Source of the DNA: Methanoculleus chikugoensis
GTDB taxonomy: Archaea; Halobacteriota; Methanomicrobia; Methanomicrobiales; Methanoculleaceae
Direction of reading: 5' to 3'
Assembly (NCBI RefSeq): GCF_019669965.1
Contig: NZ_AP019781.1
Coordinates: 1,737,092-1,801,091 of the forward strand
Length of the DNA stretch: 64,000 nt
The notes under the pieces are model-generated. The model searched no databases. It was not told the DNA's origin and saw only the letters and a program-made list of their open reading frames with translations. Positions 16,155 to 64,000 of this stretch are shown here, one piece after another. Made by a program: the position numbers and the translations under genes. Each line of letters begins with the position of its first letter. The first letter of the stretch is position 1.

Positions 16155-16215
16155 CCTCGCACCTGACGGCGTTCAAACTCCGGATGCCCTGCCCATCATT
16201 CTTTGCGCGAGGCCG
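16155..16215 (+). repeat. Single degenerate unit of the hairpin repeat family
   Basis: Contains TCGCACCTGACGGCGTTC, then AAACTCCGG and GATGCCCTGCCCATC, closely resembling the units of the array at 31341-31505. It lies between the winged-helix gene and the PP2C gene. Confidence 0.55.
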
Positions 16216-22465: not shown

Positions 22466-22717
22466 CGTGGGAATATCGCCATAGACTGCCCCCGCCCCTC
22501 TGGGGGCGGGGAACGACTGCTGGAACAGGAGGAGTTTGAGCACCGCAGGTGCGGAGGAGGAGGCTGGAGGCCGGGCGGGGTGCGACGGACGGGACGTCCG
22601 GAGCTTGAGAAGACCGGAGGTCTTCGAGTGGGGGCTACAGGAATCCCTTCGTATGTGGAGACAGGGGAGGGGGCAAGCCCCCTCCCCGTCAGCCCTTCCC
22701 CCAATGGCGATATCCCC
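22466..22717. repeat. Terminal-inverted-repeat element, copy B, carrying hairpin repeats
   Basis: Bounded by GTGGGAATATCGCC near 22467 and GGCGATATCCCC ending at 22717. It shares with copy A (9282-9462) the CTGCCCCCGCCCC / GGGGGCGGGG hairpin on the left and the GGAGACAGGGGAGGGGG...CCCCCTCCCCGTCAGCCC block on the right (stem at 22664-22687). Its middle (22515-22645), read on the minus strand, holds hairpin units GCACCTGCGGTGC + TCAAACTCC and GAAGACCTCCGGTCTTC + TCAAGCTCC + GGACGTCCCGTCC + GTCG. The rest of 22276-22870 holds no gene that I can support. Confidence 0.65.
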
Positions 22718-31157: not shown

Positions 31158-31187
31158 TCTCCCGGCCCCGGCCAACCTCGAATACCT

Positions 31188-31193
31188 TTTTTG
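31188..31193 (+). terminator. Oligo-T terminator after birA
   Basis: Six T about 30 bases after the birA stop, before the repeat-bearing intergenic region. Confidence 0.4.
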
Positions 31194-31340
31194 GGTTGAC
31201 GGGGCTCTACAAAAGCCCTCCGGCGTCAACGGAACTCTCTGAACGTTGCGTGAAAAAGTTCATCAGAGCCATCCATCGTTACCTCGCGCGAAGGCGCGCA
31301 GCCGCGAAGAGGGGTGCCGACAACTCTCCGAACTTCGCGT

Positions 31341-31505
31341 CCTTCGCACCTGACGGTGCTCAAACTCCGGTTCTTACGAACCATCGCACCTCGCACCTGA
31401 CGGTGCTCGAACTCCGGTTCATACGAACCATCGCACTTCGGACCTGACGGTGCTCAAACTCCGGCCCAAAGGGCCGTCGTCCTTCGCACCTGACGGTGTT
31501 CATGC
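31341..31505 (+). repeat. Tandem hairpin-repeat array (period 46-47)
   Basis: Four units start with CACCTGACGGTG (or close variants) at 31347, 31394, 31441 and 31487. A unit is hairpin 1 (GCACCTGACGGTGC), linker TCAAACTCC, hairpin 2 (GGTTCTTACGAACC; GGTTCATACGAACC; GGCCCAAAGGGCC) and a linker like GTCGTCCTTC or ATCGCACTTC. Stem bases change between units while pairing is kept. The last unit is truncated. No unique spacers, so not CRISPR. The remaining 31158-31664 has no gene that I can support. Confidence 0.75.
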
Positions 31506-31664
31506 TCGCTCTCGCTTGCGTATTCCGACTCTATGACGATTCCCATAGAGATCACACGCCCGACATTCAACGGCAATGGGGAACCTCAGGGGGTTGCGTG
31601 AAGCAATGTTACGCAGCCGTCGGCAGGCTTTTTCAAGTCAACCATCCAAAATAGAAGGGTTGAC

Positions 31665-63592: not shown

Positions 63593-63737
63593 TCTGATGG
63601 TACTTCTGTGCTCTTCTGTTATGAACGTTGCAGACCTCTCCCGGCGCCGGTTCGCGGGGAGAACGGGCGCTGCTCCGGGTGCAGGACTACGCTGAAATGT
63701 TTGAGACGGACCCCAGGAGGTCAAACCATTGACTTCC

Positions 63738-63960
63738 TTTTGCACCTTCGGTGCTCCAACTCCTTCTACCGCAGGCTAACGGTTGCTCGAACTCCTTTCC
63801 CGCACCTTGCGGTGCTCAGACTCCGTTCCTACGGAACGTCGCACCCTGCGGGAAAAGTCGTCCTTCGCGTTCTTCGCGGCTCGAAGCCTATGGCTTCTCA
63901 AACTCCTTCCCCAAAGGGGAAGTCGTTCTTCGCGCGACACAACTGGTGCAGATAACGATA
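63738..63960 (+). repeat. Hairpin-repeat array, diverged family member
   Basis: Units alternate hairpins and linkers: TGCACCTTCGGTGC + TCCAACTCC; CGCACCTTGCGGTGC + TCAGACTCC + GTTCCTACGGAAC + GTCG; GAAGCCTATGGCTTC + TCAAACTCC + TTCCCCAAAGGGGAA + GTCGTTCTTCGC. Stem sequence differs between units while the linkers TCAAACTCC and GTCGTTCTTC stay. The array seems to continue to the window end (CGAAGCCGCGAAGCC). The stretch 63593-64000 has no gene I can support. Confidence 0.7.
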
Positions 63961-64000
63961 TAGTCCCACGCGAAGCCGCGAAGCCGCGAACGTGAGCACC

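Follow-up and report, generated by a model that had tools for sequence, protein, structure and literature searches.

The hairpin-linker arrays described here are probably built from a non-autonomous double-hairpin mobile DNA repeat of Methanoculleus. Single units can arise at new sites in unique sequence, arrays gain and lose units in register, units enter the stem-loops of other units, and a complete hairpin can be exchanged without loss of the linkers. The unit, 44-47 bp long, is laid out as hairpin S1, TCNNRCTCC, hairpin S2 and RTCGNNCTTC, and it is the linkers that are conserved, while the stems vary freely in sequence and still pair. We regard it as a candidate member of the smallest mobile repeats for which filled and empty sites are documented, and its host is an archaeon.

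The window, i.e. the whole 64,000-nucleotide stretch analysed, covers positions 1737092-1801091 of a single-contig genome of 2.62 Mb, and contains the following features (window coordinates):

31158-31623, plus strand: array-bearing, lineage-specific stretch between birA and bioY, 467 bp long in this genome and 36 bp in G014
31346-31508, plus strand: array, with three good units followed by a decayed fourth
31346-31392, plus strand: unit 1, with S1 GCACCTGACGGTGC, linker TCAAACTCC, S2 GGTTCTTACGAACC and linker ATCGCACCTC (model match, E 3.1e-15)
31393-31439, plus strand: unit 2, with S1 GCACCTGACGGTGC, TCGAACTCC, S2 GGTTCATACGAACC and ATCGCACTTC
31440-31485, plus strand: unit 3, with S1 GGACCTGACGGTGC (one mismatch), TCAAACTCC, S2 GGCCCAAAGGGCC and GTCGTCCTTC
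31486-31508, plus strand: unit 4, decayed, with S1 GCACCTGACGGTGT and TCATGCTCG, S2 not clear
63680-64000, plus strand: lineage-specific insertion of about 440 bp with a second array, flanked by GCTGCTCCGGG and GCTGCTCCAGG
63742-63763, plus strand: S1 GCACCTTCGGTGC and linker TCCAACTCC
63796-63866, plus strand: nested unit, with outer S2 arms TTTCCC (63796-63801) and GGGAAA (63850-63855)
63802-63837, plus strand: inside those outer arms, S1 (63802-63815), linker (63816-63824) and S2 (63825-63837)
63883-63931, plus strand: unit with S1 GAAGCCTATGGCTTC, TCAAACTCC, S2 TTCCCCAAAGGGGAA and GTCGTTCTTC
22473-22713, no strand assigned: larger dispersed element, "type B", which contains two units and a G-rich hairpin; its ends are ATATCGCCA...TGGCGATAT
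22579-22625, minus strand: unit with S1 GAAGACCTCCGGTCTTC, TCAAGCTCC, S2 GGACGTCCCGTCC and linker start GTCGCACC; identical in G014
22510-22552, minus strand: unit with S1 GCACCTGCGGTGC, TCAAACTCC, S2 TCCTGTTCCAGCA (one mismatch) and linker GTCGTTCC
16159-16194, plus strand: lone decayed unit with S1 GCACCTGACGGCGT, TCAAACTCC and S2 GGATGCCCTGCCC; the place differs in G014 and G010

An initial annotation of this DNA had proposed hairpin-linker arrays at these loci, and all five stems that it quoted are present. Its claim that the stems vary yet stay paired holds at 31.3, 63.7 and 22.5 kb, but not at 16159-16194, where the copy is decayed and the stems now pair poorly. Similarly, the linkers are conserved as it had stated, but the second is broader than the GTCGTYCTTC it gave, RTCGCACTTC being more frequent. 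The ends of the unit are direct-repeat-like (TCGCA...TCGC), CGTC is present at many S2 feet among the linker-anchored pattern matches, and no GTAG-type tag was seen in the units by eye.

None of the relatives compared has the arrays at 31.3 and 63.7 kb. At 31158-31623 the flanks align in four relatives, all four of which lack the array, and the insertion that starts at 63680, which extends about 115 bp beyond the window end (as read from L239), has an uninterrupted empty site in G014 and G010. Its units (63742-63931) are of several stem types, one nested in the S2 stem of another. An imperfect 11-bp direct repeat, GCTGCTCCGGG / GCTGCTCCAGG (63664-63679 and the right flank), brackets this insertion and is perhaps a target duplication of the larger element. 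Separately, TTGTCAACC-like inverted repeats lie 5' of bioY in several relatives (window 31180-31660) and are possibly a biotin repressor operator.

Pairing was assessed on stems taken via their linkers, i.e. with no selection on pairing itself. Paired fractions were 0.87 for S1 (0.60 after shuffling) and 0.835 for S2 (0.474), and none of 200 shuffles was as high in either case. An excess of paired changes, on which the initial annotation depended, is therefore present. A separate covariation count also indicated strong covariation of the stems, although it is illustrative, as its sequences were mostly picked for pairing, and the linker-anchored test is the unselected one. The hairpins also fold better than shuffles (DNA parameters). 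Allowing one mismatch, TCAAACTCC has 27 matches in the window against 12.4 expected, a number reached in 0 of 100 shuffles, and GGTGCTCAAACTCC has 73 matches genome-wide against three for the reversed control. A covariance model gave at least 146 matches in this genome, so that further copies, on which it likewise depended, are plentiful.

With candidates limited to 150 per genome, the same model matched 32 of the 35 genomes of the genus, and stem-blind linker-anchored patterns matched 23/35 and 20/35, their controls being almost empty. The rest of the order has few model matches. A sister-genus genome (G035) has at least 41, yet no exact GGTGCTCRAACTCC, and therefore its linkers or stems differ. 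Among the matches listed in a public pattern scan were Methanoculleus, Methanomicrobiales, euryarchaeal metagenome-assembled genomes and one Arthrobacter. Carriage by viruses was rejected, viral contigs having given no exact match.

The initial annotation had listed a mobile unit among its possibilities, and this is supported by filled and empty sites of single units. A 46-bp unit at genome position 1233633 interrupts a YetF/DUF421 gene and frameshifts its end, while the gene is uninterrupted in both G014 and G010; the polarity of this insertion is based on these two empty relatives. Filled/empty comparisons also revealed a HicB-like gene frameshifted by a 44-bp unit and a zinc-ribbon protein gene with a 46-bp unit close to the C-terminus. 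In a methyltransferase-like gene (L121, near 292; a label given by eye, without a Pfam match) a 45-bp unit lies in frame and adds about 15 residues, and a nitroreductase gene is interrupted by three units. Gene calls were home-made. Most cases other than YetF/DUF421 depend on a single relative each, at 77-91% identity, and at most of those sites precise loss is therefore possible. Units also enter one another: in L240 of this genome, compared with L190, a unit has entered the S2 loop of another, which in G014 is uninterrupted. Mobility, as seen at both filled/empty and nested sites, is a trait that the two-hairpin unit shares with double-hairpin elements.

Arrays change by whole units, with in-register indels of 47, 90, 143 and 156 bp. 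At one locus (L222 1-7001, G019:C1:1426500-1433500, in a single-contig genome) a tandem array has 13 units spaced 46-47 bp apart, whereas the matching place in another relative, G005, has three, in register, a copy-number difference of the kind that the initial annotation had suggested looking for between strains. Such turnover bears on the idea, also offered by the initial annotation, of a protein-binding array, e.g. for a nucleoid protein, retained for its function. Regular spacing and GC-rich hairpins would suit such an array, and PMC2817692 reports, in its available text, that REPs and BIMEs serve as protein-binding sites, but orthologous sites differ in presence, copy number and stem sequence, and we consider this explanation highly improbable.

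Could the paired changes reflect a structured RNA, or an RNA-processing element in untranslated regions, whose pairing is kept by selection on the RNA? The strong covariation and the better-than-shuffled folding are what one would expect of it, and on the top strand some tetraloops have the sequence UNAC. However, in tandem gaps 29 units lie on the same strand as the genes and 30 on the opposite strand, a neutral orientation. Among one-sided stem mismatches the A-C count (36) does not fall below that of G-T (22), which is evidence against RNA, since RNA selection on that strand should favour G-T. Units are also inserted in genes and nested in other units, and the only Rfam match in the window above its gathering threshold is a tRNA, so that a known RNA family was likewise rejected. 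The RNA element offered by the initial annotation is thus improbable.

Unit-bearing gaps are mainly convergent (26/41), then tandem (25/108) and rarely divergent (4/42; convergent vs divergent, p 2.5e-7), i.e. promoter gaps are avoided. Together with the arrangement of short intergenic palindromes as doublets and mosaics, this placement would fit a usual REPIN/BIME system, with a REP-associated tyrosine (Y1 HUH) transposase as mover. The likeness is considerable: in the parts of PMC3116915 and PMC2817692 that are available, REPINs and BIMEs are short intergenic palindromes, present as doublets or mosaic arrays, non-autonomous and in many copies. In those same texts, however, they are bacterial and tied to a Y1 transposase, whereas the present unit is archaeal, has conserved linkers and varying stems, and lives in a host in which none was detected. 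The Y1 transposase family (PF01797) was detected neither in this genome nor in 28 of the 35 genomes of the genus. It was found in the other seven, and above the cut-off it was commoner in unit-poor (5/13) than in unit-rich genomes (1/22; p 0.019). Given also that the stem sequence is what varies, a usual REPIN/BIME system is very improbable. In one genome without unit matches, G020, there are 19 matches to Y1 transposase, of which several are fragments.

Reverse transcriptase (PF00078) was not detected in this genome and was found in 3/35 of the genus; the mover search covered these two families, PF01797 and PF00078, which represent the enzymes best known as movers of such pieces. Mobilisation by a RAYT and reverse transcription were accordingly rejected, as the respective family went undetected in most carriers. 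A MITE was rejected as well: there is no clear target-site duplication, and the unit ends are direct-repeat-like, not terminal inverted repeats. The transposase on which repeats of the REPIN/BIME type usually depend, Y1, was undetected here.

Why, then, do stems change in pairs? In the unit at 22510-22552, S2 is TCCTGTTCCAGCA here and GCTCCTAGCGGAGC in G014, while linkers and S1 are kept, so the whole S2 hairpin is replaced between sister species. In L063 compared with L198, an S2 hairpin stands where the other has a short sequence; replacements were seen only at these two places. Automatic pairing of orthologous units returned mostly coding-sequence lookalikes, and the clear element rows alone were used. 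The swap at an orthologous unit means that block copying accounts for the paired changes at least in part, as observed at one site. Stepwise change is possible elsewhere, and contributes, because one-sided stem changes are also found at orthologous units. Where the initial annotation had the structure "selected or copied", then, it is copying that was found, selection on RNA not being supported. This may serve as a warning: paired changes within a family of repeats do not necessarily signal RNA selection.

Replication template switching is argued, in the available text of PMC8794818, to create and maintain paired stems, and one may ask whether there is mobility proper at all, i.e. whether units spread solely by such switching and by short-homology repair, without a dedicated enzyme. 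Single-unit insertions do show no clear target-site duplication and 0-6 nt of ambiguous overlap, as would be expected. In contrast, what is inserted are clean whole units of 44-46 bp, at sites of little homology, and the loops hold one orientation, while a switch from arm to arm would often reverse it. We therefore find this explanation rather unlikely.

The loop orientation is marked. GNA/GNNA loops occur on one strand in 241/274 S1 and 176/274 S2 hairpins, counts that include identical copies, against 2 and 8 on the opposite strand; among all window hairpins they number 24 and 17 of 219, and by unique hairpin sequence 38/63 and 67/130, a smaller excess. In single-stranded DNA, a GNA loop with a C-G closing pair is unusually stable. 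Published work makes use of such mini-hairpins. Units have no replication-strand bias (p 0.47), although a lagging-strand mechanism might predict one.

For a mobile double-hairpin repeat we would picture the moving piece as about 46 bp: an S1 hairpin begun by YTCGCA, the linker TCNNRCTCC, the S2 hairpin and RTCGYN. The hairpins may act as single-stranded DNA, because their loops are GNA/GNNA, closed by C-G and on one strand, and some host or trans-acting activity would insert the copies. Linkers could provide the short homologies through which units are gained or lost and hairpins exchanged, and paired stem changes would thereby travel as blocks, perhaps assisted by replication template switching within hairpins. 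The full version of this proposal, an element of about 46 bp with conserved linkers and block-replaceable stems, recognised as single-stranded DNA via its GNA/GNNA loops and mobilised by some enzyme other than a Y1 HUH transposase or reverse transcriptase, is put forward tentatively, as a possibility. In cultivable relatives, the way in which repeats of this kind move becomes testable.

Rickettsia palindromic elements are another kind of palindromic repeat able to sit in frame within genes; for the present unit there is one in-frame case, and other cases frameshift. The small dispersed repeats of cyanobacteria are very small, mobile, hairpin-built repeats of other genomes and sequences, with no known mover. 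Two of the Rickettsia elements, RPE-4 and RPE-6, are named in the available text of PMC3733652, which describes CGTC-tagged palindromic repeats that are short, reported without a dedicated transposase, often dimers and sometimes in genes. Those repeats are reported from five phyla of bacteria and have different consensus sequences, and as we compare them by description, a relation to the CGTC of S2 feet is not implied. In its organisation the unit resembles REPINs, BIMEs and CGTC repeats, yet it conserves its linkers rather than its stems, and the usual transposase is undetected. Nearest in build are the double-hairpin elements known from mitochondria of fungi (Paquin 2000, as cited in PMC5910586), which are very small mobile hairpin repeats in other genomes and of other sequences, also with no known mover and alike by description. 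A literature search for intergenic repeat elements of Methanoculleus found no paper, and the literature consulted yielded no name or description of the unit.

The G-rich part of type B matches the Methanoculleus form (CTGAC loop) of the repeated G-quadruplex sequences of Methanomicrobiaceae (PMC8044849), whose description, in its available text, covers the G-rich part and a C-rich flank but not the hairpin units. Two further arrangements were observed. An array at L252 1-420 has a 29 bp period, composed of a hairpin, linker TCGAACTCC and GCTCC, with GCACC and GAAACCC stems interleaved. In L061 (1121349-1121779 of this genome), compared with L199, the stretch between two inverted TCCAAGGATTTTT-like copies appears to have opposite orientations in this genome and in G014.
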